Assembly: GCA_023701125.1 (NCBI GenBank)
Contig: JAMPXO010000033.1
Location: 1-41,386 of the forward strand
Length of the DNA: 41,386 bases
Reading direction: 5' to 3'
From: Vicinamibacteria bacterium
GTDB taxonomy: Bacteria > Acidobacteriota > Vicinamibacteria > Fen-336
This document shows positions 15,965 through 40,623 of the stretch, piece by piece. The notes below the pieces were generated by a model, which was not told where the DNA came from, ran no database searches, and saw only the letters and a program-made list of their open reading frames with translations. Positions within the stretch are counted from its first letter, which is position 1, and every line of letters starts with the position of its first letter. Position numbers and translations under genes: made by a program.

Positions 15965-15987
15965 CGGGGCCTCGGGGCCTCGGGGCT
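15965..15987. repeat. Short tandem repeat CGGGGCCT
   Basis: Nearly three copies of the 8-base unit CGGGGCCT (15965-15972, 15973-15980, 15981-15987) lie between the terminator and the stop codon of the convergent TonB-domain gene. No function is evident. Confidence 0.5.
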
Positions 15988-17464
15988 ACGGGAGGCGCTC
16001 GACGCGGGCCGTGGCCTGGTCCGCGGCGAACGTGAAGTGGGCGCGCAAGCCGATCCGCTCGGTGTTGAGGCGTCGGAACTTCCAGCTCTGGACCGCCGAG
16101 CGGGCCGCCGCGACCAGCTCGGGGGCGCCGCCGACCTCCTGCACGAGCACGTCGCCCGCGCCGTCCACGGAGAACGTGACCACCGCGGACCCGGACACGC
16201 CCGCCATCCGGGCCAGTGGCGGCACGACCGGGCGACGGCCCTCGATCAGGTCGGGGATGTTGGGACCGAGCGTCACGTCGCGCACGGCCGACACGCCTGA
16301 CTCCGGCACCATCGGCGCAGGGGGCGTCGCCGCGACCGCGGGTGCGGGCGTCGGCCGCGCGGCGGCGGGCACCACTTCTTCCTGGGGACCGCGAGCGACG
16401 ACCGGGGCAGGACGGGCCGGCGCCGCGGGAGCGGGCGTGCTCGGCCGGGCCGCCGGGGTGGCGCTCGGGACCGGTGGCGGGGCCGGGCTCGGCTGGGCCA
16501 CGGGCGGGGCACCCGGGGTCGGGGCCGCGGACGGAGGCGTCACCGGCGCGCGGGACGACGGTGCCGCCGGCGTGGCCTGCGGCGCAGGAGTCGGCGCCGC
16601 GGCGGCAGTGGGAGTGGTGGTCGGCGTGGCCGCGATCGTCTCGGGCGCCGGTGCGGGCTCCGGCGTCGCCGTCGAAGCCGCCGCCGAGGCGGCCTCGAGG
16701 GTGGCCGCGGGCACGGGCCGCGGCTCGGACAACCGGAGCGTGACGCGGCCACTGTCGCCGGGCTTCGCCGGCGGCACGAACTCCGCCGCGAGCCGGACGA
16801 GCAGTGCCGGCTCGCCATCGCGGGCGGCGAACCGCCACGTGCGCAGCGCCTGCAGCAGCGCCTCCGACGGCCCGGGGCCGCCGTCGGTGATCTGAGCCTC
16901 CTGCAGCGAGCCGTCCGCGGCGATCAGCAGCAGCGCACCCGCCGCCTCGGCCTTCGCAAGGCCCGCCGGCACGACAGGCACCGCACCCGTGCGCAGCTCG
17001 GGCACACCCTGCGCCCGGATCGTCTCCGGCAGCTTGATCGCGAACGTGATCGGCACCGACAGTCGCACGCTGACGGGCCTGCCCTCCGCCCGCGTCGGCT
17101 CGTACGTCCACTGCCGCACCGCGGCCAGCGCCGCGTCGTCGAAGGGCGGCACGCTGCGCACGACCTCCGCGAAGGCGACCCGGCCCTCCGCGTCGATCAC
17201 GATCTCCAGGATCACGATCCCGCGCAGGCCCGCGGCCACGGCCTCGGCGGGGTACTCCGGCATCACGAAGTGGGTGCGGCGGGGGACCGGCACCTCGCTG
17301 CCCGCCAACCGTGGTGAGGCAGGCGCGGCGGCCTGCTCCGGAGTGGCGGCCGGCTCCTGTGGGGCGGCCGGCTCCTGAGCGCCGGCAAGGCCGGCCGTCA
17401 ACACGACCAGGGCGCAGGTCGCGCCCGCGATCAGCGGCGACCGGCCAGGCCGGCGGCCGGTCAC
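15986..17464 (-). CDS. Secreted protein with several TonB C-terminal-like domains
   Basis: The 492-residue product starts at GTG 17464, overlapping the stop of the upstream EF-G paralogue (GTGA). An N-terminal signal peptide is likely (RRPGRSP, a hydrophobic run at 11-27, AGAQ cleavage region). A clear TonB-C domain spans about 66-143 ([33 protein letters not shown]). A weaker, shortened one lies at 176-230 ([14 protein letters not shown]). A Pro/Ala/Thr linker covers 250-385. A third fold-like segment lies at 410-480 ([28 protein letters not shown]). Classical TonB has one such domain and an N-terminal membrane anchor; here the anchor may be cleaved. Role unknown; an envelope partner of TonB-like systems is a guess. 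Confidence 0.82.
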
Positions 17465-19652: not shown

Positions 19653-20486
19653 GTGATCGCCCTGCGCCGCGCCAGCGTGCTCGCCGCCGACGCCGCCTCC
19701 GTGAGCGGGGGCCGGGCCTCGCGCGGCCTCACGGGCGGCCTCGCGGTGGCCTCGGCCGCGCGTGTGGGGTGGAACTCGCCGGTCTCGCCGGAGCCGCTGC
19801 CGGCGGCCGAGCTGGACGCGCTCGGATCGGCCCTGCGCGAGGTCGCCGTCGCGGCCGGGGTCCGGGCGACGCGCGCGACCGTCCTGCTGCCCGACTACGC
19901 CGGTGCGGTGCTGGTGCTGGATCGCGAGCGCGGCGTCGACCTGGCCGAGCACGCGCGTTTCCGGCTGGCCGCCTCGCTCGACGCTGCCGTCGCCGACCTG
20001 GTCGCCCGGGTCGCGCCGGCGCCCGGCGGACGGCTGCTCGCGATCGCCCTGCGCCGCGACACTCTCGTGAGCTACCAGGCCGCGATCGCCGCGGCTGGCC
20101 TGGCCTCGGCCGCGATCAGCTTCACGGCCTTCGCGGCGCTGGCCGCGCTGCCCGCGGCCTCCGCCCCAGTGACCGTCGACCTCGTCCTGGGCGACGCCGC
20201 CGGCACGCTGTTCGGGTGGAATGGCGGCCGCCTGGCCAGCGCGCGCTGTCGCCTGCGTGACCCGGGAGCGGACGACGCGCCCCGCTGGCACGCGGAGATC
20301 CGTCGCACCGCCGCCCTGCTCGGAGCCGAGCCGGGTCGGGTGCGGGTGCTGGGCCCCGGGGCCGCGCGACTGGGGGCCGCCCTGGTCGGCCTCGGCCTGC
20401 AGGTGCGGGTAGGGCTGCCCCGTCTCCAGGTCGACGTGCCCGGCGTCGCCGGCGAAGACCTGCTGTGGCCGGCGGCGCTGGCATGA
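19653..20486 (+). CDS. PilM/GspL-like inner-membrane platform protein
   Basis: The predicted 277-residue product from GTG 19653 resembles the actin-like ATPase fold of PilM or the cytoplasmic part of GspL only weakly. The assignment leans on gene order: three coupled small genes follow with PilN-, PilO- and PilP-like layouts. Visible features are an LLPDYAGAVLVLDRERGVDL segment, typical of PilM domain 1 (the LP-D and L-D pattern), and a glycine-rich VLGPGAARLGAALVGLGLQV near the end. No Shine-Dalgarno sequence precedes the GTG, and TAAGAT (19640-19645) ends seven bases upstream, so translation might be leaderless. A few other starts are possible further upstream, but they overlap the divergent EF-G-2 promoter region. 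Confidence 0.55.
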   Translation: MIALRRASVLAADAASVSGGRASRGLTGGLAVASAARVGWNSPVSPEPLPAAELDALGSALREVAVAAGVRATRATVLLPDYAGAVLVLDRERGVDLAEHARFRLAASLDAAVADLVARVAPAPGGRLLAIALRRDTLVSYQAAIAAAGLASAAISFTAFAALAALPAASAPVTVDLVLGDAAGTLFGWNGGRLASARCRLRDPGADDAPRWHAEIRRTAALLGAEPGRVRVLGPGAARLGAALVGLGLQVRVGLPRLQVDVPGVAGEDLLWPAALA

Positions 20487-20992
20487 GCCGATTGCCCGAT
20501 TTCGCCGCGCCGCCGCCATCGCAGCGGGCGTCGACCCCCGCCGTGCTGGCCGCCGCGCTGGTGTTCGGCCTCGCTTTCGCGGACGCGTGGCTGGCCCGCG
20601 ATCTGGCCACGGGGACCGAGGCCCGGGTCGCCTCCCTGCAGGCGGAGACCGTGGCGCTGCGCGCTCGCGTCGATCGACTGCGCGCCGCCGTGCGTCGGGG
20701 CGCCGATGCGCCCGCGCTCGGGGCCCTGACCGTGCCACCGGCCGTGATCCTGGACCACGTCGCCTCGCGCCTGCCCGCCGACGTGCGGCTGACCGATTTC
20801 GAGGTCCGCTATCTCGACGCCGCCCGCGTCCGCCTCGCGGTCGAGGCTCGCACCCCGGAGGCCTGGGACCGCCTGCTGGCGGCGCTCGCCGCCTCGCCCC
20901 GGCTGCGCGAACTGCGGCCCAGCCCCGAGCGCCGCGAACACGACCTGCGCGCCAGCATCACCGCGACCTGGGTGGACGAGGGGGCGCAGTGA
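20483..20992 (+). CDS. PilN-like pilus/secretion assembly protein
   Basis: The 169-residue product starts at ATG 20483, overlapping the previous stop (ATGA). It has a short cytoplasmic N-terminus (SRLPDFAAPPP), one membrane segment (about 21-36), a coiled-coil stretch (ASLQAETVALRARVDRLRAAV), and a small periplasmic ferredoxin-like domain (LPADVRLTDFEVRYLDAARV...). This is the layout of PilN, which in type IV pilus systems carries the INLLP-type tail that binds PilM. The N-terminus here contains RLPDF, a possible equivalent. GspL C-terminal half is an alternative. Confidence 0.6.
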   Translation: MSRLPDFAAPPPSQRASTPAVLAAALVFGLAFADAWLARDLATGTEARVASLQAETVALRARVDRLRAAVRRGADAPALGALTVPPAVILDHVASRLPADVRLTDFEVRYLDAARVRLAVEARTPEAWDRLLAALAASPRLRELRPSPERREHDLRASITATWVDEGAQ

Positions 20993-21495
20993 ACCGCGGC
21001 GTCGTCGTCCTCGCGTTGCTGGTGGCGGCGTTGCTGCTGCACGGGGGCGTGGCCCGGCCCGCCCGCGCGCGGGCGCAGGCGCGGGGCGCCGAGGAGGCCC
21101 GGCTGCACCGCGAGCTGCGCGCGCAGCGGCTGCGGCTGGCCGAGACGACGCGCGCGGCGCGCCGCCTCGAGGCCTCGCGCGAGCAGGTGGCGCGGGCGCC
21201 GCAACTCGAGCGCGACAGCGCCCCGACCGCCGTCAGGGCCACGATCGTCGCCCGCATCGCCGGCATGGGGCTCGACGAACTGCGGCTCCAGGTGCGGCCC
21301 GCCACGGGCCTCGCGGTGGCCCAGTTCGACGTCTCGGGCCGCGCGGCGACGACTCGCCAGGCGCTGGCCGCGATCGCGGCTCTCAACGACGCCGGAGAGG
21401 CGCGGGTGACCACCGCCGTGCAGCTCTCGAGCGACGGCGCTGGGCTGCGCTTCAGCGCTCGCGGCTCGCGGCTCCAGCCGCAGGGCACCCCGTGA
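20989..21495 (+). CDS. PilO/GspM-like pilus/secretion assembly protein
   Basis: GTG 20989 overlaps the preceding stop (GTGA) and gives 168 residues. It has an N-terminal membrane segment (about 3-17), a coiled coil rich in Arg and Glu (28-68), and a C-terminal domain with MGLDELRLQVRP and FDVSGRAATTRQALAAIAAL, the ferredoxin-like fold pattern shared by PilO and GspM. In such systems it pairs with PilN in the periplasm. Sequence identity to either family is weak, so the call rests on size, topology and position. Confidence 0.55.
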   Translation: MNRGVVVLALLVAALLLHGGVARPARARAQARGAEEARLHRELRAQRLRLAETTRAARRLEASREQVARAPQLERDSAPTAVRATIVARIAGMGLDELRLQVRPATGLAVAQFDVSGRAATTRQALAAIAALNDAGEARVTTAVQLSSDGAGLRFSARGSRLQPQGTP

Positions 21496-21956
21496 GGCGC
21501 GCGATGCTGGCCCTCGTCGCCGCCCTGGCCGCGATCACGGCGTACTGGTCGTCGCGCCCACCGGAAGTCGCGGCGCCTGCCGCGCCTGCCGCCCGGCCCG
21601 CGCCCGCGCGGGTCGAGCCGACTCCGTCCACCGCGCCGCCGCGGGGCGGTCGCGACCCGTTCGCCTTCGGTGGCGCGGCCGTCGACCCCGCCCCCGAGCA
21701 GCAGATCGAAGACCACGAGCCGCAGTTCGAGTCGGTACCGCAGCTCCCCACCCCGACGCCACCGCCGTTGCGCCTGGCGGGCCTGGTCGGCCGCGACGGC
21801 CGCCTCCACGCGGCGCTGGTCGAGAGCGGCGAGGTGGTGTTGGCGGCCGTCGGCGAATCGGCCTTCGGCTGGACGGTCGCCGAGATCGATCCCGTGACCG
21901 GGGTCCTGTTGCGAGGCGCCGACGGCGCGGAGCTGCGGCTGCCGGTCGCGCGATGA
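21492..21956 (+). CDS. PilP/GspC-like periplasmic linker protein
   Basis: GTG 21492 again overlaps the previous stop (GTGA). The 154-residue product has an N-terminal anchor or signal (residues 4-19), a Pro/Ala-rich linker to about residue 50, GGRDPFAFG, and a small beta domain (LRLAGLVGRDGRLHAALVESGEVVLAAVGESAFGWTVAEI...) with a GVLLRGADGAELRLPV end. RDPF followed by a small beta domain is the layout of PilP, and also of GspC, which connects the inner-membrane platform to the outer-membrane secretin. No secretin gene follows. Confidence 0.6.
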   Translation: MRRAMLALVAALAAITAYWSSRPPEVAAPAAPAARPAPARVEPTPSTAPPRGGRDPFAFGGAAVDPAPEQQIEDHEPQFESVPQLPTPTPPPLRLAGLVGRDGRLHAALVESGEVVLAAVGESAFGWTVAEIDPVTGVLLRGADGAELRLPVAR

Positions 21957-21973: not shown

Positions 21974-22002
21974 TTGCTTCGCCCGGGGGGCGGTGCTAGA
22001 TT
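21974..22002 (+). promoter_or_regulatory. Candidate promoter of the pseudokinase gene
   Basis: TTGCTT (21974-21979) and TAGATT (21997-22002) are separated by exactly 17 bases, and TG at 21994-21995 adds an extended -10. This lies in the 91-base gap after the pil-like operon and 45 bases before the ATG at 22048. A GAGGGTGG ribosome binding site follows. It is the best sigma-70-like promoter seen in the window. Confidence 0.6.
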
Positions 22003-22047: not shown

Positions 22048-24042
22048 ATGACCAGGAAGGAAAAGTTCGGCAAGTTCGTCCTTCTTGAAGAGATCGAGAA
22101 GACCGGACTCGGCACCGAGTTCCGCGCCGCCAAGCTGTCCGCGACGGGCCTCGAGAAGATCGTCAGCCTGTTCCGCTTCGCGCCCGCCGTCACCGCCAAC
22201 GCCGATGCGGCGAAGCTGCTGATGGACCAGGCCAAGCTGGCGGCCCAGCTCCAGAACACCAACATCGTCAAGGTGCTCGGCATCGGCAAGGTCGAGGCCA
22301 GCTACTACGTCTCGTCCGAGTTCGTCGAGGCCAAGAGCCTGCGCGCGATCCTGCGCCGCGCGCGCCAGGACGGCTTCCCGTTCTCCGTCGACCACGCGCT
22401 GCTGGTCGCGAGCAAGGCCTGCGCCGCGCTCGAGTACGCCCACGGCCGCCGTGCCGAGGACGGCTCGCGCATGGTGCACGGCATGATGGCGCCCGAGCAC
22501 GTGCTGGTCAGCTACGAGGGTGAGGTTCGCACCCGCGGCTTCGGGCTGTGGCCCGCGCAGTTGCGCGAGTTCGGCCTGCTCGGACCCGACGAAACCGCGG
22601 CGCTGTCGCCCGAGCAGGCGGCCGGCGGCAAGGCCGACGCGCGCTCGGACGTGTTCGGTGTCGGCGCCCTGCTGTTCGAGGCGCTGACCGGGCAGCATCC
22701 GTTCGCGAACGGCCGCAGCGAAGATTTCGCCGGCCTGCTGGCCGCGGCCCGGCTCGCCAACCCGACGACGGACGACGACAGCATCCCTGCCCCGATCCTC
22801 GACATCCTCGGCAAGTCGCTGGCGCCGGCGGCCGCGCGGTACGGCGAGATGGCCGAGATGCGCAAGGCGATCGACACCCTGCTCTTCACCGGCGACTTCA
22901 CGCCGACGACCTTCAACCTCGCCTTCTTCATGCACTCGCTGTTCCGCGAGGACATCGACCGCGAGACGCGGGCGCTGAAGGAAGAACGCGAGCATGGCTA
23001 CGCCGAGTACCTCGGCGAAGAGAAGCCGGCGCCCGCGCCGGTCGTGGTGCCGTCGCCCGCGCAGGCGGCCACGGTCCAGATGGACCGGCCGCACGTGCCG
23101 GAGGCGCCGCACGTGCCGCCGCCCTCGCATGCCGGCCCGCCGCCCTCGGAGCCCGCGATCTCGATCCCCGGCGGGGCTCAGCCCGCCGCCGGGAAGAGTT
23201 CGATGCCGATGGTCGTGGGTGGCCTCGCCGCCGTGGTCGTGATCGCGGTGGGCGCCTGGATGATGCTCGGCCGCACGACGCCGGAGCCGGCGCCGACGGC
23301 TCCGGCCACGCTCTCCGCCGAAGCCGCGGCCGCGATGAAGAAGGTCCAGGAACTCGAGCAGAAGCTGGCTGCGCTCGAGGCCGAGAAGCAGGCCGAGGAG
23401 CAGAAGGCGGCCGAAGAGGCCGAGAAGAAGCTGAAGGCCCAGGCCGCCGCCAAGGGCCAGCAGGTCGATCCCGCCGCCCTCGCCAAGGCCCAGGAGGAGG
23501 CGCGCAAGAAGGCCGCCGCCGAGGCCGAGGCGCGCCAGCAGGAGGAACTGCGCAGGCTGGCCGAGGAGAAGAAGGCCGAAGAAGCGCGCATCGCCGACGA
23601 GAAGAAGCGGGCGGACGAAGCGGCCCGCGCTGCCGCCGCAGCGGCCCCGCCGACGACGGTCGCCGCCGCCGCGGCTCCGGTTTCGCAGGCGGCCGCCCCG
23701 GCCCCCGCGCCCGCGACGCCCGCGGCGCTCAAGCCCGGCACGCTCGTCAACCTGAGCGACGCGGGAGTGATCTCGCCCGTGGTCGACAAGAACCCGGCTC
23801 TCCAGTACCCGCCGATCGCGCTCCGCCAGCGCGTCGAAGGCACGGTCGAGTTGAACGTGCTGGTCGACGAGAAGGGCAGCGTCACGGATGCCCAGGTCGT
23901 GACGGGCGCCGGCGGCAAGGCCGGCCTGAACGAGGCCGCGATCGACAACGTCAAGCGGCGCAAGTACCGGCCGGCGACCAAGGACGGCGTGCCCGTCAAG
24001 GTGTGGGTGCCGGTGCGCGTGGTCTTCAAGCTGCCCAGCTAG
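22048..24042 (+). CDS. Pseudokinase - membrane segment - coiled coil - TonB C-terminal fusion protein
   Basis: A 664-residue protein with four parts. Residues 8-280 follow the Ser/Thr kinase fold (EYAHGRR; SPEQAAG; ARSDVFGVGALLFEALTGQHPF). The catalytic residues are missing: the ATP lysine position reads SLFR (K to F42), the HRD motif is HGM (144-146), the loop asparagine is H151, and DFG is GFG (164-166). Residues 325-385 are a Pro-rich linker; 387-408 form one membrane helix; 424-528 a charged coiled coil; 578-663 a complete TonB-C domain (NPALQYPPIALRQRVEGTVELNV; RKYRPATKDGVPVKVWVPVRV). The pseudokinase would be cytoplasmic and the TonB domain periplasmic. Substrate and partners are unknown. 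It is preceded by a good promoter and ribosome binding site. Confidence 0.9.
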   Translation: MTRKEKFGKFVLLEEIEKTGLGTEFRAAKLSATGLEKIVSLFRFAPAVTANADAAKLLMDQAKLAAQLQNTNIVKVLGIGKVEASYYVSSEFVEAKSLRAILRRARQDGFPFSVDHALLVASKACAALEYAHGRRAEDGSRMVHGMMAPEHVLVSYEGEVRTRGFGLWPAQLREFGLLGPDETAALSPEQAAGGKADARSDVFGVGALLFEALTGQHPFANGRSEDFAGLLAAARLANPTTDDDSIPAPILDILGKSLAPAAARYGEMAEMRKAIDTLLFTGDFTPTTFNLAFFMHSLFREDIDRETRALKEEREHGYAEYLGEEKPAPAPVVVPSPAQAATVQMDRPHVPEAPHVPPPSHAGPPPSEPAISIPGGAQPAAGKSSMPMVVGGLAAVVVIAVGAWMMLGRTTPEPAPTAPATLSAEAAAAMKKVQELEQKLAALEAEKQAEEQKAAEEAEKKLKAQAAAKGQQVDPAALAKAQEEARKKAAAEAEARQQEELRRLAEEKKAEEARIADEKKRADEAARAAAAAAPPTTVAAAAAPVSQAAAPAPAPATPAALKPGTLVNLSDAGVISPVVDKNPALQYPPIALRQRVEGTVELNVLVDEKGSVTDAQVVTGAGGKAGLNEAAIDNVKRRKYRPATKDGVPVKVWVPVRVVFKLPS

Positions 24043-24063: not shown

Positions 24064-26115
24064 GTGCACCTGCGACCGTATCCGTTCACCGCCCTGGTCC
24101 GCCGCGCGCTGCGTGAGCTGGACCGGGGCGGTGACGTCTTCGACCTGCCGCGCGCCGCCCTGCACCGCGCGGACCAGGCACTCGACCTGTCGGTCGACTT
24201 CCACGGCCATCGTGCCGCGACCCCGCTCGGGCCCGCCGCCGGTCCGCAGTCTCAGATGGCGCAGAACCTCGCGCTGTGCTGGCTGTCGGGCAGCCGCATC
24301 CTCGAGCTGAAGACCGTGCAGGTCAAGGACGCCCTCGACATCCCGCGCCCCTGCATCGACATGGCCACGGTCGGCTACAACGTCGAGTGGAGCCAGGAAC
24401 TGCGGCTGCCGGAGTCGCTCGCGGAGTACGTCAAGGGCCGGATGCTGATCGAGGTGATGCGAGCGCACCTCGGCGTGGACCCGGGCGCGGACCCGCTGGT
24501 GTTCGACACCAGCGTCGGCTACGACCTGGCGGGGCTGCGCAGCGGGCCGGTGCAGGCGTTCCTGGGCGGGATGCGTGACGCGCGCGCGCTCGTCGACCGC
24601 CTGCGCCGCGAGATCCCGGACGAGTGGCGCCACTACCGCGACCTCGACTTCCCGGCCGCCATCTCGGACACGGTGACGCTCAGCACGTTCCACGGCTGCC
24701 CGCCCGACGAGATCGAGCGGATGACGGAGTTCCTGCTCGAGAGCGGCTTCCACGCGGTGGTCAAGCTCAACCCGATGCTGCTCGGGCCGGAGCGCGCTCG
24801 CGAGCTGCTGCACGGCGTGATGGGCTACGACGAACTGCGGGTGCCGGACTCCGCGTTCGCGCGCGACACCCGCTGGGAGCAGATGGCGGGCTTCGTCGAC
24901 CGCCTCGGCCGCCGCGCGACGGAGCTGGGGCGCGGCTTCGGCGTGAAGTTCTCGAACACGCTGATCGTGGAGAACCACCGCGACTTCTTCCCCGCCACGG
25001 AAAAGGAGATGTACGTGTCGGGGCCGCCGCTGTTCGTGCTGGCGATGAATCTCGTCCAGCGCTTCCGCGCGGAGTTCGGCGCGCGTTTCCCGATCTCGTA
25101 CTCGGCCGGCATCGACCGCGGCAACTTCGCGGACGCGGTGGCGCTGGGCCTGGTGCCGGTGACCGTGTGCTCCGACCTGCTCAAGCCGCGCGGCTACGCG
25201 CGGGCGGCGGGCTACCTGCAGTCGCTGCGCGAGCGGATGCGCGCCGTCGGCGCGTCGCACGTCGGCGACTTCGTGATCCGCGCGTTCGGCCTCGGCGAGG
25301 CTGCGCTCGGACGGGTGACGGGGCTCGACGACGCGGCGCGGGCGCGGGGCCTCGCGACGCTCGCGACCGGCGGCGACCTGCGGGCCGCGGTGGGCGAGGC
25401 GGTCCACGCCGCGTGGCGCGACCAGGCCGCGCTGCTCAACACGGACCACTACGTGCCCAAGGCGACCCGCGACCCGCGCTACGGCCAGCCCGCCAATGCC
25501 AGGCCGCCGAAGAAGCTCGGTAGCCCCCTGCAGCTCTTCGACTGCGTCACCTGCAACAAGTGCGTGCCGGTGTGCCCCAACGACGCCAACTTCGCCTTCG
25601 TGCTGCCGCGGCTCGAGCAGTCGATCGTCAAGCTTCTGCCCCGGCCCGGCGGCGGCTTCGCGGCACGGGTGGACGGCCAGCTCGTGATCGAGCAGAAGCA
25701 GCAGTACGCCAACTTCGCCGACTTCTGCAACGAGTGCGGCAACTGCGACGTGTTCTGCCCCGAGGATGGCGGGCCGTACGTCGTCAAGCCGCGCTTCTTC
25801 GGCAGCGTCGACGACTGGCGCCAGCTCGCCCACCTCGACGGCTTCGTGCTGGATGCCGCCAGCGGCGCACTCCACGGCCGAATCGGCGGCCGCGACTACG
25901 CGCTCTCCGCGGAGGGCGAGCGCGAGCGCTATGCGGCCACGGGCTTCTCGCTGCTGCTCGATCCCGCGGACCCGGCCCGCGACGCGCGCGGGGAGGCGCT
26001 CGGCGAGGTCGACCTGACGCCGTTCCACATCCTGCGCTGGATCCGCGCCGGGGTGTACGCTTCGGAACGCATCAACTATCTGACTGAGTTGACGGCTGAC
26101 CCGGGAGGGCCGTGA
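24064..26115 (+). CDS. ygfK: Short YgfK-like Fe-S oxidoreductase (putative urate/ureide reductase subunit)
   Basis: The 683-residue product starts at GTG 24064, matching the E. coli YgfK opening RPxPF. A flavin-binding dihydroorotate-dehydrogenase-like barrel covers about 1-400 (PLGPAAGPQSQMAQN; ELKTVQ; LSTFHGCPPDEIE; VKLNPMLLG; DLLKPRGY). Two ferredoxin-type 4Fe-4S motifs follow at C494-497-500-504 and C555-558-561-565. E. coli YgfK is about 1030 residues and has a glutamate-synthase-like FAD/NADPH module between barrel and clusters. That module is absent here, with only about 90 residues bridging the two. In other bacteria ygfK is tied to selenium-dependent purine hydroxylases and urate breakdown. 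It lies 21 bases after the pseudokinase gene and overlaps the next gene. Confidence 0.9.
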   Translation: MHLRPYPFTALVRRALRELDRGGDVFDLPRAALHRADQALDLSVDFHGHRAATPLGPAAGPQSQMAQNLALCWLSGSRILELKTVQVKDALDIPRPCIDMATVGYNVEWSQELRLPESLAEYVKGRMLIEVMRAHLGVDPGADPLVFDTSVGYDLAGLRSGPVQAFLGGMRDARALVDRLRREIPDEWRHYRDLDFPAAISDTVTLSTFHGCPPDEIERMTEFLLESGFHAVVKLNPMLLGPERARELLHGVMGYDELRVPDSAFARDTRWEQMAGFVDRLGRRATELGRGFGVKFSNTLIVENHRDFFPATEKEMYVSGPPLFVLAMNLVQRFRAEFGARFPISYSAGIDRGNFADAVALGLVPVTVCSDLLKPRGYARAAGYLQSLRERMRAVGASHVGDFVIRAFGLGEAALGRVTGLDDAARARGLATLATGGDLRAAVGEAVHAAWRDQAALLNTDHYVPKATRDPRYGQPANARPPKKLGSPLQLFDCVTCNKCVPVCPNDANFAFVLPRLEQSIVKLLPRPGGGFAARVDGQLVIEQKQQYANFADFCNECGNCDVFCPEDGGPYVVKPRFFGSVDDWRQLAHLDGFVLDAASGALHGRIGGRDYALSAEGERERYAATGFSLLLDPADPARDARGEALGEVDLTPFHILRWIRAGVYASERINYLTELTADPGGP

Positions 26116-27347
26116 TGAAGCAGGACCGACTGGCCATCAAGGGCGCCCGGCTCGTGGGCCGGCTCGAGGAGCTGGCGCAGATCGGCGCGATCGACGGCAA
26201 CGGCTGCTGCCGGCTGGCGCTGACCGACGAGGACCGCCGCGGCCGCGACCTGGTCGTGTCGTGGATGAAGGCGCTCGGCCTGGCCGTCACCGTCGACCGC
26301 ATCGGCAACGTGGTCGGGCTCCGCGCCGGCCGCACCGCGGGCGCGCCGGTGGTGATCGGCTCCCACATCGACACCGTGCGCACGGGCGGCCGCTACGATG
26401 GCAACCTGGGCGTGCTGGCCGGCCTGGAAGTCGTGGCGACGCTGAACGACGCCGGCGTGACGACCGACAAGCCGCTGGCGGTGGCCTTCTTCACCAACGA
26501 GGAAGGCGCTCGCTTCGCGCCCGACATGATGGGCAGCGCGGTCCACCAGGGCGCGCTGGCGCTGGACACCGCGCTGGCCGCGGTCGGCATCGACGGCGAG
26601 ACGGTCGGCGACTGCCTGAACCGGATCGGCTACGCGGGCCCGGAGCCGGTCGGCACGATGCGCGCCGCGGCCTACGTCGAGCTGCACATCGAGCAGGGGC
26701 CCGTGCTCGAGCGCGAGGGCGTCCAGATCGGCGCGGTCACCGGCGTGCAGGGCATCTCGTGGACCGAGCTGACGATCAAGGGCGTCTCCTGCCACGCGGG
26801 CACCACGCCGATGGCGATGCGCCACGACGCGGGCTACGCGGCGGCGGAGATCGCCTGCTTCGTGCGTCGGCTGGCCCACGAGATCGGCGGCACCCAGGTC
26901 GGCACCGTCGGATTCCTCGAGCTCGCGCCCAACCTCGTCAACGTCGTGGCCAACCGTGCGCGGCTGACGGTCGACCTGCGCAACACCGACGAGGCCGTAC
27001 TGCGCCGCGCGGAGGAGCGCACGTTCGCCTTCCTCGACGAGCTCGCCGCGCGCGAGGGCGTCGAGATCACGCGCCGCACGCTGGCCCGCTTCGCGCCGGT
27101 CGACTTCGCGCCGGAGATGATCGCGATGGTCGAAGAGGAGGCGCAGGGGCTGGGGCTGTCGACGAAGCGGATGCCCTCCGGCGCGGGCCACGACGCCCAG
27201 ATGTTCGCCCCCAATTGCCCGTCCGGGATGGTCTTCGTCCAGAGCCACAAGGGCCTCAGCCACAACGTTGCCGAGTACACGGCCCCCGAGCACCTCGCGG
27301 CCGGCGCCAACGTGCTGCTCAAGGTCGTCCGGAGGCTCGCGGGCTAG
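26115..27347 (+). CDS. M20-family N-carbamoyl-L-amino acid / allantoate amidohydrolase
   Basis: A 410-residue zinc hydrolase of the AllC/HyuC/ureidoglycolate type, which removes a carbamoyl group from ureido acids. Metal ligands are visible: H84 and D86 in GSHIDT, D95 in RYDGNLG, E129-E130 in NEE, H191 in ELHIEQG. The central HAGTTPM motif and the late GAGHDAQ and SHKGLSHN segments complete the family pattern. ATG 26115 overlaps the ygfK stop by one base; GTG 26112 would add one residue. The substrate cannot be fixed: N-carbamoyl amino acids, allantoate or 2,3-diureidopropionate are all possible. The ygfK context favours a purine-derived ureide. Confidence 0.92.
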   Translation: MKQDRLAIKGARLVGRLEELAQIGAIDGNGCCRLALTDEDRRGRDLVVSWMKALGLAVTVDRIGNVVGLRAGRTAGAPVVIGSHIDTVRTGGRYDGNLGVLAGLEVVATLNDAGVTTDKPLAVAFFTNEEGARFAPDMMGSAVHQGALALDTALAAVGIDGETVGDCLNRIGYAGPEPVGTMRAAAYVELHIEQGPVLEREGVQIGAVTGVQGISWTELTIKGVSCHAGTTPMAMRHDAGYAAAEIACFVRRLAHEIGGTQVGTVGFLELAPNLVNVVANRARLTVDLRNTDEAVLRRAEERTFAFLDELAAREGVEITRRTLARFAPVDFAPEMIAMVEEEAQGLGLSTKRMPSGAGHDAQMFAPNCPSGMVFVQSHKGLSHNVAEYTAPEHLAAGANVLLKVVRRLAG

Positions 27348-27687
27348 CCCCGCAGCCCGCCGCCGGGCGGCCGCCGTCGTCGATCGAGCGTGGGGCGGGG
27401 TCGGACGGGGTCAGCGGTCGCACGACCAGGTGTCGCAGGCCATACAGGCTCGCGTACCCGAGCGCGAATGCCAGCAGGCCCAGCCCGAAGCTGATGCGAT
27501 AAGCGCCCTCGAGCAGCGCGGCGACCAGGAGCGTCGCGCCGCTCCAGCCCGCCACACCTCGCAGCACACGCGGATAGTACGTGCCGATCGCATGCCAGAG
27601 ATCGATGATGCCGTACAACGCCGCGAGCACGCGGATGGCGAGCGCCACGCCGAGCCCGAAGGCGAACAACGAGCCCAGCCGCGTCAC
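27319..27687 (-). CDS. Small membrane protein of unknown function
   Basis: GTG 27687 overlaps the stop of the upstream PEP-utilising enzyme (GTGA) and gives 122 residues. Three hydrophobic stretches are seen: about 5-28 (FAFGLGVALAIRVLAALYG), 46-66 and 68-90. The remaining C-terminus (91-122) is polar and rich in Pro, Gly and Arg. The 3' end overlaps the convergent amidohydrolase gene by 29 bases. I do not recognise the family. The tight coupling suggests it works with the phosphotransferase-like protein. Confidence 0.6.
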   Translation of the reverse strand: MTRLGSLFAFGLGVALAIRVLAALYGIIDLWHAIGTYYPRVLRGVAGWSGATLLVAALLEGAYRISFGLGLLAFALGYASLYGLRHLVVRPLTPSDPAPRSIDDGGRPAAGCGASPRASGRP

Positions 27688-30305
27688 GGGCTCGCTCCCG
27701 TCTCCAGCACGCAGACGCGGCCCGAGTCGGCATCGACGTCGAGCAGGTCTCCGCTACGGATTCGGCGCGTGGCCTCCGGCACGTCGACGACGCACGGCAT
27801 TCCGAACTCCCGCGCCACGGTCCCGGCATGGGAGAGGTAGCTGCCGACCTCCACGACGGCCGCGCCCGCGGTGAGGAAGAGCGGTGTCCACGCCGGGTCC
27901 GTGTAGGGCGCCACCAGCACCTCCCCGGGTTCGATCCGGGAGTCGACGGTGGGGTCCAGAATGATCCGGGCGCGGCCCTGGTAGCGGCCCGGCGAGGCAC
28001 CTCGCCCCTCGAGCCTCAGGTTGTCCCCGGCCGCGGAAGCGTGCCGGGGCCGCGGCCTCAGCTCGAAGCCGATCGTCTTCCGCGGACCCAGCTTGGACAG
28101 GCGGATGTGCTCGATCCGCCGCTCCCGGACGAGGTCCTCCACGTCGAGCCAGCCGAGCCGTCCCGCCTGCAGGCCGGAGAGCTCGGCGAAGGTCAGGAAG
28201 AAGACGTCGTCCTTGCACTTGAGTCGGCCGTCGTGGATCAGAAGGGCTTCGATCCGCGTGACCTTGGAGCGCACGATCGCCGGCCCCATGATGTGATAGA
28301 AGCGCGAGTTCTCGCGCAGCTTGAGGTAGTAGCGGGCCCGTTCCGCCGCGGCCAGGATCAGCCGGAAGCGGAGGCCCGTCGCCCGCTCCAGGGGCAGCGC
28401 TGCGAGGGACTCGCGGAGCCTCGCCGCGAGTCGTTCGCGTGCCTGCGCGGCCCGTCCCTCGTGGTCGGTCCGCGCCGGACCGAGGCCGAGGGCGTTGCGG
28501 ACCATGCCCAGCACCACGGACGGCTCCTCCTCGAAGCGTGGCGAGCGCAGCTCGAACTCCTTGACCGCGCGATGGCCGTTCTGCGCGAGGAACGCGGCCA
28601 GCGCCTCCAGGAAGGGGCCCGCCTCCGGCTCGGCGCGCAGCGCCGCGAGCGCCCGCTCGGCAGTCTCGCCCTCGAGGATTCCGCGCACCCGCGGCGAGCG
28701 TCGCGCGGTCGCGGCCAGCGCCACGATGCCGCGGCCCATCTCTGCGGAGAGCACGCCCTCCGATCCGGACGAGAGCAACACCTCGGCTTCCTCCCGGAAG
28801 TCCGGCACCCAGCGGTCGAGCAGCCGCCTCAGCGCGTGGAGCCACGGGAAGCCGATCGCCGAGCAGAGGTTCACGATCGCCGGCATGTGGGCCATCGGCG
28901 CGAAGATCGAGGGCAGCAGCCAGAACTGGCGCAGCACCTGCTCCGGAGCCACGCTGTCGTCGTCGGCGAGCCGGCGGGCGAGGTCCCGGCCCCCATCGAG
29001 GGCCGAGTCCGGGAGGGCCCGGACGCGCGCGAGCGGGACGGCGCAGACGAGGAACCCGGCCAGCCCCGCGAGCAGGAGCGGGGGGAGCTTCGACCAGTCG
29101 AGATTCCAGTCCGGGCCGTCCCGGGACAGGGAGTAGACGTGGTCGGCGAGTTCCTCCGGGGAGGCCTGGAACGGGAGCAGCCACTCGAGGACGGCGACGT
29201 CCAGGTACACCCAGCCGCGGATCACCCGCAGGCCGGCCGGAGGCATCACCGAGCGCACCATGTCTTCGCTCAGCGGCGTGAGCGGCTCGGTGAAGTTCTC
29301 GGCGATCGGCTTGAACAGGACCCAGCGTCCGCAGATCCCGCGGCCCACTTCCTCCCGCCCCACGACCGTCACGGGCCGCGACTGGAGCAGCCAGAAGCGT
29401 CCTGCGGACCAGGCCCACTCGACGTCCTGCGGCTGTCCGAAGTGCGCTTCGGCGCGCAACGCCCACTCGGCGACGAGCCGGAGGTCCCCGGGTCCGAGGC
29501 TCTCGCGGGTGCGATGGTCCAGGGGCACTGTCTCGAGCCGGGCCTGTTGGTCCGCCTCCAGCCGGGGTGCGACCATCAGCCGCTTGTCGGCGATGCGCCG
29601 CTCCAGGACCGCGAGGTCCTCGCGGCGCAGCACGAAGCGGTCGGGCGAGACGCGGCCGTCCACCAGCGCGGCTCCCATGCCCCAGCACGACTCGACGATC
29701 AGCTCGTCGCGCTCGCCCGTGACGGGGTTGAGCGTGAAGGTCACGCCCGCAACCTCGGCGGGGATCATCTCCTGCACCACGACGGCCATCGCGACCGAGC
29801 GGGAGTCGATGCCGTGGGTGGCCCGGTACGAGATCGCCTCGGGGCTCCACAGCGAAGCCCAGCACTGGCGCACCCGTTTCGAAAGGTGCTCGGCATCGAC
29901 GTAGTAGTAGGTGCCGTGCTGGCCCGCGAAGCTGGCCGCCCCGAGGTCCTCGGCGGTCGCGGAGCTGCGCACGGCGCACCGGACCTCGTCGCCGCGCCCC
30001 GCCAGCAGCCGGAGATGCGCTTCCCGGAGGGCCGTGGCGAGGGGCGGAGGCAGCTCGGCCTGTTCGATCCGGCGCCGGACATGCGCCGAGTGGGTCGCCA
30101 CCGTCGCCGCGTCGGCCCCCTCGAGGGCCCGCAGGTCCGCGCCCAGGTCGAGTTCCTCGAGATACGCGGCGGAGGCCTCGGCGCAGATCACGAAGCCGGG
30201 CGGGACGGGGAAGCCGCTGGCCAGCAGTTCGCCCAGGTTGGCCGCCTTGCCACCCACCCGGGCGCGATCCGTGGCCCGGACTTCGTCCAGCCTGACGATA
30301 TCCAC
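27684..30305 (-). CDS. PEP-synthase / rifampin-phosphotransferase-like enzyme
   Basis: This 873-residue protein has an N-terminal pyruvate-phosphate-dikinase ATP-binding domain (GGKAANLGEL near residue 18; RSSATAEDLGAASFAGQHGT; VVQEMIPAEVAGVTFT), a long central region without a clear family motif, and a C-terminal mobile phosphohistidine domain with SHAGTVAREFGMPCVV, where H826 is the expected phospho-acceptor. Order and total length match rifampin phosphotransferase (about 870 residues) better than PEP synthase, which has the swivelling histidine domain in the middle. The true acceptor may be a small molecule other than rifampin. GTG 30305 is the start; a promoter overlaps it. It is divergent from ygeW. 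Confidence 0.85.
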   Translation of the reverse strand: MDIVRLDEVRATDRARVGGKAANLGELLASGFPVPPGFVICAEASAAYLEELDLGADLRALEGADAATVATHSAHVRRRIEQAELPPPLATALREAHLRLLAGRGDEVRCAVRSSATAEDLGAASFAGQHGTYYYVDAEHLSKRVRQCWASLWSPEAISYRATHGIDSRSVAMAVVVQEMIPAEVAGVTFTLNPVTGERDELIVESCWGMGAALVDGRVSPDRFVLRREDLAVLERRIADKRLMVAPRLEADQQARLETVPLDHRTRESLGPGDLRLVAEWALRAEAHFGQPQDVEWAWSAGRFWLLQSRPVTVVGREEVGRGICGRWVLFKPIAENFTEPLTPLSEDMVRSVMPPAGLRVIRGWVYLDVAVLEWLLPFQASPEELADHVYSLSRDGPDWNLDWSKLPPLLLAGLAGFLVCAVPLARVRALPDSALDGGRDLARRLADDDSVAPEQVLRQFWLLPSIFAPMAHMPAIVNLCSAIGFPWLHALRRLLDRWVPDFREEAEVLLSSGSEGVLSAEMGRGIVALAATARRSPRVRGILEGETAERALAALRAEPEAGPFLEALAAFLAQNGHRAVKEFELRSPRFEEEPSVVLGMVRNALGLGPARTDHEGRAAQARERLAARLRESLAALPLERATGLRFRLILAAAERARYYLKLRENSRFYHIMGPAIVRSKVTRIEALLIHDGRLKCKDDVFFLTFAELSGLQAGRLGWLDVEDLVRERRIEHIRLSKLGPRKTIGFELRPRPRHASAAGDNLRLEGRGASPGRYQGRARIILDPTVDSRIEPGEVLVAPYTDPAWTPLFLTAGAAVVEVGSYLSHAGTVAREFGMPCVVDVPEATRRIRSGDLLDVDADSGRVCVLETGASP

Positions 30306-30319
30306 GGGAGCCTGCGGAC

Positions 30320-30351
30320 ACTATACGCCCGGGGTCACGGACCGGCGTCAA
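30320..30351 (-). promoter_or_regulatory. Candidate promoter of the phosphotransferase-like gene
   Basis: On the minus strand TTGACG (30351-30346) and TATAGT (30325-30320) both match consensus at five of six positions, but the spacer is 20 bases, longer than usual. The inferred transcript would begin only about 8-10 bases before GTG 30305. The same 65-base gap must also hold the ygeW promoter, so the two transcripts may be regulated together. Confidence 0.45.
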
Positions 30352-30370
30352 AATTGCATCGGTCCAGCCC

Positions 30371-31492
30371 ATGGCACATCCTGCGATCGATCCGGCATCT
30401 CTCGCGGCCCTGCACGGCCGCAGCCTGCTGCTGACGCAAGACTGGAGCACTCCCGAGCTCGACGCCCTGCTCGCGCTCGCGCAACGTCTGGCGGCGCTCG
30501 ACCGGCAGGGGAAGCGCGCCGCGCTGCTGCCCGACCAGCTCGCCTACGCGCTCTTCTTCGACAACTCGACCCGCACCAAGTCGGCGTGGGCGGGGGCCTC
30601 GGCTCGGCTCGGCATGCAGCCGGTGATCGTCGACGGCTCTTCGACCCAGGTCGCCCACGGCGAGACCGCGGCCGAGACCGGCGCGATGCTGGGCATGAAC
30701 GCCCACGCGCTCGGCATCCGCCACGACCTGATCCTCGGCGAGGGCAACCGCTTCATGCGCGAGGTCCAGTCCGGCATCGACGGCTACCTCGCCGCGACCG
30801 GCGACCCGCGGGTGGTGCCGATCGTCAACCTCCAGTGCGACGTCGACCACCCGACCCAGACCCTGGCCGACCTGCTGTGGCTGCGCGAGAAGCTGGGCGA
30901 CCTGGCCGGCAAGAAGATCGCGGTGTCGTGGGCGTATTCGCCCTCGTACGCGAAGCCGCTGTCGGTGCCGCAGGGCCTGATCACGCTGCTGACCCGCTTC
31001 GGCGCCCGCGTCACGCTGGCCCAGCCCGAGGGCTACCGGCTGATGGACGAGCCGATGGCCGCCGCCGCAGCCAACGCCGCCGCCTCGGGCGGGTCCTTCC
31101 GCGCGGTGTCGTCGATGGACGAGGCGTTCGCCGGCGCCCATGCCGTGTACCCGAAGTCGTGGGGTCCGTGGGACCTGATGGTGGAGCGGGTCGAGGCCAA
31201 CCGCGGGGGCGACAAGGCGCGGATGGGCGACATCGAGAAGCGCGCGCTGTCGCGCAACGCGGGCCACAAGGACTGGATCTGCGACGAGCGGCGGATGGCG
31301 CTGACCGCGGACGCGCTCTACCTGCACTGCCTGCCCGCGGACATCGGCGCCGAGGTCAGCCCCGGCGTGATGGACCGCTTCCGCGTCGACGTGGCGCGCG
31401 AGGCCAACTGGAAGGTGTACGTGGTGATGGCGCTGCTGGCCGCCGCCAAGGTGGACGACCTGCCTGCGCGCCTCGCGGCGCTCGACAAGTGA
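30371..31492 (+). CDS. ygeW: YgeW-family carbamoyltransferase
   Basis: The 373-residue product is a member of the aspartate/ornithine carbamoyltransferase fold. The carbamoyl-phosphate loop is FFDNSTRTKSAW (STRTK at 66-70); HPTQTLADL (160-168) and HCLPADIGAE (319-328) complete the active site. The long central insertion GWAYSPSYAKPLSVPQGL-type (SWAYSPSYAKPLSVPQG, 186-202) and the ending are those of YgeW rather than ArgF. In purine-degrading bacteria YgeW is thought to work in the phosphorolytic direction, moving a carbamoyl group from a ureido acid to phosphate. It forms a pair with ygeY. The start is ATG 30371, with no strong ribosome binding site. Confidence 0.94.
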   Translation: MAHPAIDPASLAALHGRSLLLTQDWSTPELDALLALAQRLAALDRQGKRAALLPDQLAYALFFDNSTRTKSAWAGASARLGMQPVIVDGSSTQVAHGETAAETGAMLGMNAHALGIRHDLILGEGNRFMREVQSGIDGYLAATGDPRVVPIVNLQCDVDHPTQTLADLLWLREKLGDLAGKKIAVSWAYSPSYAKPLSVPQGLITLLTRFGARVTLAQPEGYRLMDEPMAAAAANAAASGGSFRAVSSMDEAFAGAHAVYPKSWGPWDLMVERVEANRGGDKARMGDIEKRALSRNAGHKDWICDERRMALTADALYLHCLPADIGAEVSPGVMDRFRVDVAREANWKVYVVMALLAAAKVDDLPARLAALDK

Positions 31493-31509
31493 AGGTGCAG
31501 GAGAACCCG

Positions 31510-33066
31510 ATGGCCCCCGACACCCTCGACCAGCAGATTGCATCTCTCGCCGCGAGAGACCTGCCGCTCGCCACCCGCATCCTGCGCGAGGCGATCCGCA
31601 TCCCCGCCGACTTCGTCGACAAGCCCGTGGAGCAGGGCGGCGACCCGCTGTGCGGCCTCTCCAACCACGAGGGGCCGCGGATGGAGTACCTGAAGCGGAT
31701 GGTGGTCGAGGCCGGCGCGGTGCGCCGACCGGAGGACGTCGACTTCGACGCCTACGGCAACCTCGTCTGGGCCGTGCAGGACGAAGCGGACGGCATCCCC
31801 GCGAAGGCCAAGAAGGTCATCTACCTCGACGGCCACGCGGATACCGTGCGCGCGCTGCGCTCCGACTGGCGCGACAAGACGAACGGCGGCATCGACGCCT
31901 ACGACGGCGTGGTGGATCTCGGCCGCGTCGACCGCGACGTGCTGCGCGGCCTGCTCGGCTACCTGCCGCCCGACGAGGAGTGGGGCCACCTGCTGTTCGG
32001 CCGCGGCTCCGCGGACCAGCTCGCGGGTGTCGTCTCGCAGATCGTCGCCACCCGCATCCTGCTCGAGCTGGCTCCCCTGGGGGCGCTGCGCGGCGTGATC
32101 GTGCGCTCCTACGCGACGGCCGCCGAGGAGGACAACGACGGCGGCGGGCCGCTGCACCTGGTCGGCCACGTGCTGCCCGGCGCCGGCCCGGAGCGGGTCC
32201 CCGACGTGGTGATCCTGACCGAAGGCACGGGCGACGCGAACAAGGGCGCGCTCGGCATCTACCGCGGCCAGCGCGGGCGGATGCAGATCGAGGTCGTGGT
32301 CACCGGCCGCTCGTGCCACGGCTCGATGCCGTGGGAGGGCCTCAACCCGTTCGAGCACGGCGGCGCGATCGTCGCCGAGGCGGCGCGGCGCTACGACGCC
32401 CGCGACGGCTTCCTCGACCACCCGTTCCTCGGCCACGGCACCCGCACGGCGTCGTGGGCGAAGCTCGACACGCCGTCGGACTGCGCGGTGCCCGAGAAGC
32501 TGACGCTGCGCTTCGACCGCCGGCTGACGCTGGGCGAGACGCCGGAGCAGGCGCTGAAGGACGTCGAGGCGCTCGACGCGGTGCGCGTCGCGCGGGCGGC
32601 GGGGCTGAAGGTCGAGATCGCGGTGCCGCCGTACCGCGAGAAGACCTGGCGCGGCTATCTCGCCGACAACCCGCAGATCTACCGCGGCTGGCTGACGCCG
32701 GAAGATCACCCGGCGATCCGGGCGGCGGTCGCGGCCTACCGCGGCGTCGTCTCGCCGCACGTCGTCGAGCCCGCGGGCGGCGCCCAGAAGGCCACGCTGC
32801 GCCGCGAGCCGCGGGTCGACCGCTGGATCTTCTCCACCGACGGCGTCGGCTTCCCGATCCCTGTCTCCGAAACTCGGATCGCGGTCCCGGACTCCAAGCG
32901 CTGGATCGTCTCGGGCGACGTCAAGCACCCGGCGATGTTCGGCATCGGCGCGGGCGTCGAGCAGAACACCCACCGCGTCGGCGAAAACGTCGATCTGCGC
33001 GAGCTGCAGCACGCGATCGCGGTGATCGCCCGCTTCCCGAGCGCCTTCGCCGCGATCCCTCAATAA
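31510..33066 (+). CDS. ygeY: YgeY-like M20 metallo-hydrolase, long form
   Basis: ATG 31510 has AGGAG seven bases before it; GTG 31489, which overlaps the ygeW stop, is an alternative adding seven residues. The 518-residue protein keeps the M20 ligands: H109 and D111 in DGHADT, D169 in GRGSADQ, E206-E207 in AAEED, E238 in TEGTGD and H488 in [10 protein letters not shown]. coli YgeY has about 400 residues; the extra length includes a segment at 115-160 between the first two motifs and one at 370-440. In this locus it probably hydrolyses a ureido or carbamoyl intermediate. The stop overlaps the convergent nitrilase gene by seven bases. Confidence 0.9.
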
Positions 33067-33985
33067 ATCTCGGGGCGCTGGTCGCGGGGCAGGTTCCAGC
33101 CCGAGGGGTCGGGCCGCACCCGCTCGTCCAGATCGAGGTCGGCGATCACCAGCTCCGGCGGTGCGGGCACGCGCGGGAACGGGCCGTTGGGGCCGACGAA
33201 GTAGCTGGCGCCGAAGTACTCCTGGTTCCACGGCCGCTCCGAGCCCTTGCGGTTGGAGCCGCCGATGAACAGGTTGTGGCGCGCCGCGTCGGTCGGGAAC
33301 TCGAGGTCCCACATCCGCCGCGACTTGGCGCCGAACGTCACGGCCGGGCACAGCAGCAGCTCGGCGCCGTTCTGGGCCACTGTCTGTACCGCGTCGGGGA
33401 AGTGGCGGTCGTAGCAGATCAGGATGCCGAGCTTGACGAGCGGCGTCTGGAACACCGGGAAGTACGGGTTCTTCGAGATGTTGGCGGGCCACTCGCCGAG
33501 GGCCCCGTCGCTGCGCTCGTAGTAGGCCGTCTCGGTGAACGAGCCCTGCTCGTTGGTGCCCTCGGGGATGTGGGTCTTGCGGTAGCGGCCCAGTACGTCG
33601 CCGTCGGGGCCGAACACGACCGCGGTGTTGAAGTAGCGGCCGGTGCGCGGGTCCTCCTCGTAGATCGGCGCCACCAGCGTCATCCGGTGGCGCGCGGCCA
33701 GCGGCTTCATCCGCTGCGCGGTGGGCCCGTCGACCGCCTCCTCGGACAGCATCCGCCACATCGGGTCGCGGGTCAGCGCGAAGTAGGGCGCGGTGAACAA
33801 CTCGCCCATGCAGAGCACCTGCACGCCCAGGCCCGCGGCCTGTTCGATCAGCTCCTGGTGGTGGTCGAGGTTGGCCTCGCGCACCTCGTCGAGGCGGCCC
33901 GCGAGCGAGTGCAACTCGGCCAGCGACTCCGGCATGTGCGGGTAGGCGTTGCAGGTCTCGGTCAGCGCGGCGCGCAGCGGGCGGG

Positions 33986-33989
<4 letters not shown>
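33060..33989 (-). CDS. Nitrilase-superfamily amidohydrolase (beta-ureidopropionase-like)
   Basis: The 309-residue protein has the complete Glu-Lys-Cys triad: E63 in GELFTAPY, K138 in RKTHIPEG and C192 in ICYDRHFPD. The CYDRHFPD context is that of N-carbamoyl-beta-alanine or N-carbamoyl-amino-acid amidohydrolases rather than true nitrilases. Such enzymes release CO2 and ammonia from a ureido group. ATG 33989 overlaps the stop of the upstream PLP enzyme (ATGA). It is the last gene of the five-gene minus-strand operon. It offers a second route of decarbamoylation besides YgeY and the AllC-like enzyme. Confidence 0.92.
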
Positions 33990-36915
<2,926 letters not shown>

Positions 36916-36934
36916 CTCGTCCGTCCCCCCACGT

Positions 36935-37954
36935 TCATCGCGGCAACGCCCGCATTCTCTGCCACAGCCGGTCGGCCTCGGCCCGCGCGCGCTCGCGCAC
37001 CGCATCGCGTCGCGCTGCCGCCGCCGAGCGGGCGCGTTCCCACGTCGCCCGGTCGGCGCCCGTGAAAGCGCTGCCGAACCGCTCGGCCAGCAGCCGCTCG
37101 CTGGCCGCGGCCCGGCCGCGGGCGTGGCCGAGGTGATCGCCCGCTGCGGCGGCCGCAGCCAGCAGCGCCGCTTCTTCTTCCGCCATGTCGGCGGGGTAGC
37201 CGTCGGTGCCGAGCGCGACCTGCGCCGCGTGCGCCAGCGCCTGCGGATAGCCGACGCGGTTGCCCTGGTTCGAGCGCGGGTTCTGCACGAGCCAGCAGCC
37301 CGCGTCCGAGACCCGTTTCACCTCGTCCGCGTCCAGGTGCACGCCGTGGGCGAAGACCGACCCGGGGACCAGCGCCTCGAGCCGGGCGAGGCGGTCGACC
37401 ACGCCCGCGTACCCGCGTCGACGCGCGTCCTCGACGTCGGCCCCGTCCTCGGCGACGTGCACGTGCAGGACGCTGCCCAGATCGCGGGCCAGCCTGGCCG
37501 CCTCGCGGATCGTCTCGTCCGAGGCCGTGAACGAGGCGTGCAGGCCGATCGCGCCACGCACGAGCGGCCGCCGATTCGCCCGCAGGAAGCGCTCGCACTC
37601 GGCCAGGCCGCGGCGGGCCTCGTCGTCCCCGCCGTTGCGCTCCGTGGCCCCGTAGCAGAGCACCGCGCGCAGGCCCGCGGCCTGGCAGGCGTCGGCCAGC
37701 ACGTCGAGCGAACCCTCGATCGACTCGGGCGACTCGTGGTGGTCGACCAGGCCGAAGCAGCCGAGGGCCAGCGCTTCGCTCGCGTAGAACTCGGCGCTGG
37801 CGGCCAGGCTGCGCTCGTCGAGCGCGCGGTCCAGCCGCCACCACAGGCGGCCGAGGATCTGCAGGAAGTTCTCGGGCGGCGGCTCGGGCGCCGGCATCCC
37901 CAGCGGCGCCAGGCCGCTATAGAGATGGGTGTGCGCGTCGACCGCGAGCGCCAA
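36935..37954 (-). CDS. ssnA: SsnA-like amidohydrolase, core domain only
   Basis: The 339-residue product follows E. coli SsnA through the metal-dependent barrel: H8 and H10 in [10 protein letters not shown], the [17 protein letters not shown] segment (34-50), [14 protein letters not shown]166 in HVHVAED, H203 in [20 protein letters not shown] and D251 in [11 protein letters not shown]. coli SsnA is about 440 residues with N- and C-terminal strands that form a beta-sandwich. Both are missing: the protein starts at the first metal motif, and after [10 protein letters not shown] it jumps to a helical end resembling the SsnA terminus ([10 protein letters not shown]). TTG 37954 is the only sensible start (GAAGGG six bases before), three bases after the dehydrogenase stop. 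Probably a purine-ring or imide hydrolase. Confidence 0.85.
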
Positions 37955-37956
37955 GG

Positions 37957-40623
<2,667 letters not shown>

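Follow-up and report, generated by a model that had tools for sequence, protein, structure and literature searches.

A role is known for only a few bacterial pseudokinases. A review from 2025 recognizes seven bacterial pseudokinase families, none of them with TonB, and describes MviN and EssB/YukC as non-catalytic scaffolds (PMC12599244). MviN (ActPs3, Mycobacterium) is an envelope protein with a dead kinase domain that has lost all three motifs, EssB/YukC of type VII secretion is a single-pass membrane pseudokinase scaffold, and the GLW and ActPs2 families have a membrane helix on the C-terminal side of the dead kinase, whereas DLHK pseudokinases keep the catalytic Asp and have no membrane helix (PMC12599244). 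PknB-type PASTA kinases likewise join a cytoplasmic STPK fold to an extracytoplasmic domain through one helix. TonB and TolA combine a membrane helix with a periplasm-crossing linker (a helical rod in TolA) and a C-terminal TonB_C-fold domain, and bind their motor via a Ser/His motif in the membrane helix (PMC12204202).

Here, we describe a gene from the window (the whole stretch of 41,386 nucleotides that was analyzed), whose host was judged from the closest named relatives to belong to the Acidobacteriota, and whose product resembles each of these systems in part. Unlike MviN, which is actinobacterial, is fused to a multi-pass transporter, reads Lsidhpsr in place of HRD, and has no TonB_C, it carries HRD and DFG replacements that differ from those of ActPs3 (compared by description in PMC12599244); EssB/YukC, also compared by description, is found in Firmicutes as part of T7SSb and has no TonB_C. 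The GLW family has Gly-Leu-Trp at HRD (PMC12599244), where the window protein reads HGM, and ActPs2 is marked by a beta3 Arg, HRN, and large insertions; TonB_C has been reported for neither family. The protein differs from DLHK in having lost the Asp and in having a membrane helix, from PASTA kinases in its dead active site and in carrying TonB_C instead of PASTA, and from TonB and TolA in its large cytoplasmic domain, its lack of the Ser/His motif, and its location away from exbBD/tolQR. No kinase-TonB fusion architecture was found in published reviews, older domain surveys, or a Planctomycetota kinase survey, a search confined to freely readable papers (and so without the original 42-family bSTK atlas), whose negative outcome is not proof of novelty. 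Membrane pseudokinases are thus known, but the present architecture is not described in the published reviews found, and its evolutionary setting is unusually clear.

Domain architecture

The open reading frame (22048–24042, forward strand, exact boundaries) starts with ATG, shows coding-type codon use, and encodes 664 amino acids. Pfam matches above the cut-off were obtained for the kinase (PF07714, 1.8e-13; PF00069, 5e-11) and for TonB_C (PF03544, 4.8e-19), the latter also matching TIGR01352 at 3.7e-15. In an AlphaFold2 model built with 12 sequences, pLDDT was mostly 85–95 in the kinase region, followed by a disordered linker (~325–390), a membrane helix (392–407), two further helices (424–468 and 475–531), and a TonB_C fold (578–660). 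The kinase part resembles PknB/PknA of Mycobacterium tuberculosis (Foldseek E 5.5e-16; VIA-align Z 27–28 over ~250 residues), with StkP and PknB as its best sequence matches, and the TonB_C part aligns to TonB2 and TonB structures. An earlier note, made from the sequence alone, had proposed a clear kinase fold followed by a membrane helix, a coiled coil, and an intact TonB-C domain; the Pfam matches and the model agree with this order, the helical segment corresponding to a rod at ~424–531. The kinase is predicted to be cytoplasmic, and the rod and TonB_C periplasmic (Table 1).

Table 1. Features of the pseudokinase gene and of the genes upstream of it (window positions).
Feature	Coordinates	Strand	Remarks
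Divergent PilM/GspL-like cytoplasmic actin-fold protein	19653..20486	+	PilM fold confirmed; syntenic in the window's order only
PilN-like	20543..20992	+	
PilO/GspM-like (weak)	20989..21495	+	By position and size
PilP/GspC-like	21504..21956	+	Weak NCBIfam matches to both
Probable own sigma70-type promoter	21974..22002	+	TTGCTT-N17-TAGATT with TGn extension
Pseudokinase domain, aa 1–282	22048..22893	+	Bi-lobed STPK fold, every catalytic residue replaced
Post-kinase tail, aa ~282–315	22891..22992	+	Most conserved stretch; GDFTPTTFNLAFFMHSLFR (near-)invariant in dead relatives, differs in active ones
Pro-rich linker, predicted cytoplasmic	23020..23208	+	Low model confidence, probably disordered
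Single transmembrane helix, aa 389–407	23212..23268	+	Without TonB/TolA Ser/His motor-binding motif
Helical rod, predicted periplasmic, aa ~424–531	23317..23640	+	Ala/Glu/Lys-rich, TolA-like make-up
TonB_C domain, aa 584–662	23797..24033	+	Fold intact

Loss of the active site

Alignment to active relatives showed that none of the five residues of an active STPK (Lys, alphaC Glu, catalytic Asp, Asn, and DFG Asp) is present: the beta3 Lys is replaced by F42, the alphaC Glu by Q61, HRD by H144-G145-M146 (the catalytic change being D146M), the catalytic-loop Asn by H151 (N151H), and DFG by G164-F-G (D164G). The replacement of the Lys, HRD Asp, loop Asn, and DFG Asp that had been noticed earlier was therefore confirmed, with the alphaC Glu added to the list. 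Degradation also extends to the Gly loop, while the structural residues H144, P149, P188-E189, and D201 are retained. Orthologues with as little as 42% identity show identical catalytic losses. When the two most closely related genomes (G000, that of the window, and G002) were compared, the kinase domain gave a dN of 0.050 and a dS of 0.302, that is, a dN/dS of ~0.17; the loss of catalytic residues is therefore not chance decay, and the gene is under purifying selection. The protein thus qualifies as a pseudokinase, with a kinase fold, lost catalytic motifs, and retention by selection.

Conservation of the dead family

Orthologues occur in most genomes of the window's taxonomic family and also in its sister family, and every one of them combines the losses with TonB_C; homologues with an intact catalytic core, which according to the earlier note would speak against its reading, were sought, and the window's orthologues are all without that core. 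A search of the phylum (396 genomes) yielded further dead members in other classes, together with another group of proteins whose core is intact. The dead family extends over 13 or more taxonomic families of Acidobacteriota, the phylum that the survey covered; a separate single-sequence contig scan reaches close relatives only. Dead members measure 600–705 aa and share the order kinase-TM-rod-TonB_C. At one locus (L122 1528–5600, forward strand; G280:C60), two such genes lie in tandem, with their reading frames overlapping by 4 bases.

Residue conservation was counted in 39 dead and 38 active sequences. None of the 39 dead relatives has the catalytic Asp; 29 of them have lost all five catalytic residues, and the remainder keep at most two. 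The HRD Arg is Gly in all 39, most of which read HG(F/L) at this position. Since G145 is invariant and H144 nearly so, the old HRD loop is still constrained, and other bacterial pseudokinases have changed their chemistry (PMC12599244), so that a conversion of the fold into a different enzyme, or into a sensor of nucleotides or small molecules, akin to the chemistry change of SelO and SidJ, might be considered. SelO and SidJ retain ATP- or metal-binding residues (PMC12599244), whereas the dead clade shows free variation at positions 42, 61, and 151 and in the Gly loop, and we regard such a conversion as quite unlikely.

The strongest constraint in the dead clade is found C-terminal of the kinase domain rather than inside it, in a tail that reads PTTFNLAFFM and is near-invariant across the family. 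Residues G282, P286, T287, T288, F289, N290, L291, A292, F294, M295, and R300 are 92–100% conserved (F289, L291, and A292 in 39/39; N290 and T288 in 38/39; R300 in 37/39), while the active clade mostly has other residues at 282, 288, 289, 290, and 300. Judged by this pattern, the post-kinase tail would be the place to seek a docking surface.

The active sister clade

In two maximum-likelihood trees, the dead proteins formed one side of a branch supported at 100/100, also when outgroups were included. With twelve other Acidobacteriota kinases added, the outgroup (98/87), active (93/91), and dead (100/100) groups were separated, and the dead clade was sister to the clade with an intact catalytic core, in a tree that has some long branches and whose root rests on this single outgroup. 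The active sisters are mostly kinase-TM-TonB_C proteins of 870–1170 aa, with a receiver domain in both members scanned by Pfam; within the window's own order, the active sister is without the helix and TonB_C. Active and inactive kinase-TonB fusions, for which a survey had been suggested, thus both exist, and the fusion is therefore probably older than the inactivation. The simplest reading of the trees would be a single inactivation, after the TonB_C fusion and before the classes diverged.

The receiver-STPK-TM-TonB_C proteins of the active clade (L086, L123, and others), for which no published name was found, share with the dead ones the order kinase-TM-linker-TonB_C and a helix without the motor motif, but differ in their intact VAIK/HRD/DFG, their N-terminal receiver (the two scanned), and a tail not conserved as PTTFNLAFFM. 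By eye, the receiver domain of L086 (aa 9–121) has Ser in place of the phospho-acceptor Asp, so that a live kinase may carry a dead receiver. A conserved FGI(K/D) motif, possibly a docking tag, is also found at the C-terminus of active sister kinases (L044–L056). Kinase-TonB fusions are recurrent in these genomes: the window's genome encodes a further, active-looking kinase-TM-TonB_C protein with an intact core (C101; L004 558–2330, reverse strand), whose kinase is only distantly related to that of the window protein. Dead members were found in 30 genomes and active ones in 62, with 23 genomes carrying both, versus 4.7 expected (Fisher), a co-occurrence that is suggestive only, having been tallied by hand at E 1e-60 without regard to phylogeny and with active members found via a dead-built profile.

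TonB_C and energy transfer

The earlier note had linked the protein to TonB-type energy transfer. In such a model, the pseudokinase would sense a cytoplasmic state and control a true TonB, through which ExbB/ExbD would supply an outer-membrane transporter with proton-motive energy. The TonB_C fold is indeed intact, the genome has 3 clear ExbD matches and one weaker, together with 23 TonB-dependent receptor matches, and the modeled rod and linker would be long enough to span to the outer membrane. On the other hand, the Ser/His motor-binding motif is absent from the helix of the window protein and of every relative checked: the helix core contains a His in 0 of 65 kinase-TonB_C fusions (41 dead and 24 active), versus an SxxxH in 5/5 canonical TonB/TolA-like proteins examined in the window's genome. 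Moreover, no ExbB/ExbD or receptor gene lies next to the locus, the ExbD loci being on other contigs (C82, C235, and C58), where those on C82 and C235 adjoin canonical TonBs. The domain is thus TonB_C by fold, but a role as a TonB energy transducer is not supported by these sequences, and we consider it very unlikely.

Other proteins also carry TonB_C. In the window, a gene between rplQ and the EF-G paralogue (15986–17293, reverse strand), conserved in the order, encodes two TonB_C domains, and its sibling product in L060 starts with a secretion-type, lipoprotein-like signal, which places TonB_C there without a TonB helix. A TM-PEGA-PEGA-TonB_C protein cut by a contig end (L077 7787–8878, reverse strand; G000:C170) is possibly the tail of another kinase fusion. 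The TonB_C proteins of C178 were considered as further fusions and rejected, since none showed kinase homology to the query. TonB_C appears to be used repeatedly as a periplasmic module without a motor-binding helix, which calls for caution against naming every TonB_C protein an energy transducer.

Genomic neighborhood

Throughout the window's order, PilM-N-O-P-like genes precede the pseudokinase gene, beside an EF-G paralogue and rpoA-rplQ. In the window, these genes (19653–21956, forward strand) make up a second, divergent PilM-N-O-P/GspL-M-C-like set without a secretin, the canonical pil genes being on another contig (C154). This linkage, the PilM fold of the first gene product, and the finding that all 11 genomes with a dedicated PilM (E<1e-60) have the pseudokinase would agree with a fixed part of a type IV pilus/type II secretion-like machine, in which the pseudokinase docks the PilM-like neighbor and TonB_C reaches a secretin or the cell wall, as in EssB/YukC of T7SSb. 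Against this, pil-like genes lie near the pseudokinase at 0/25 loci outside the window's order, and one genome (G006) has the pseudokinase without a dedicated PilM. A promoter pattern (TTGnnn-N17-TGnTAnATT) between the PilP-like and pseudokinase genes, kept in 6/6 aligned genomes, suggests separate transcription; it was seen by alignment only, a sigma70 consensus scan having called no promoter upstream, and the pseudokinase gene probably has its own promoter. In several sibling genomes, an opposite-strand gene also intervenes between the two. We therefore consider membership in such a machine unlikely, and a pil-like operon as universal partner is ruled out, the linkage being confined to the window's order. 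A possible genome with pil-like genes but without the pseudokinase (G016) was not counted, since its contig ends inside the matching fragment.

The intervening gene (L061 9670–11322, L063 2704–4347) encodes a protein of ~550 aa with an HEVGH motif, the L061 copy of which had no Pfam match. Downstream, a block of YgfK-like, amidohydrolase, transcarbamylase-like, and xanthine dehydrogenase-like genes (24064–40623; assigned by eye and partial Pfam) separates the pseudokinase from groEL, which is close to it in other genomes of the family. In one sub-clade, the pseudokinase gene lies beside ruvX and mltG, co-directional and close in 8/9 mltG loci; mltG encodes a peptidoglycan lyase, and the MltG of Enterococcus is phosphorylated directly by the PASTA kinase IreK, a membrane STPK (PMC12369325). 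The neighbors suggest an envelope role, but since they differ between clades, no single pathway is implied.

Proposed role

We favor, at a probability of roughly 55%, a scaffold or sensor that spans the envelope with a single membrane pass, is non-catalytic, and does not draw its energy from ExbB/ExbD. In this model, the pseudokinase and its PTTFNLAFFM tail would form a module that docks a partner in the cytoplasm, for which the active sister kinase, or a client of that kinase, is the first candidate, and the periplasmic helical rod would carry TonB_C toward the peptidoglycan or outer membrane, where it may bind a partner or cue. By analogy with membrane STPK receptors, MviN, and EssB/YukC, binding on one side might be relayed to, or clustered with, the other. 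The earlier proposal of a cytoplasmic sensor or scaffold joined across the membrane to TonB_C stands in part: the kinase is dead, TonB_C is intact, and a scaffold or sensor is plausible, whereas the link to TonB energy transfer is not supported.

More tentatively, the dead and active proteins may represent an ancient, phylum-wide pair of envelope kinases with periplasmic TonB_C as sensor or anchor, without energy transfer, in which the dead member would partner the live one allosterically or by docking, perhaps in the control of cell-wall synthesis (MltG, in one sub-clade). The family seems to have been inactivated once, persists in much of the phylum, and still has a living sister clade of similar architecture, so that the loss of catalysis and the putative gain of docking could be compared position by position.
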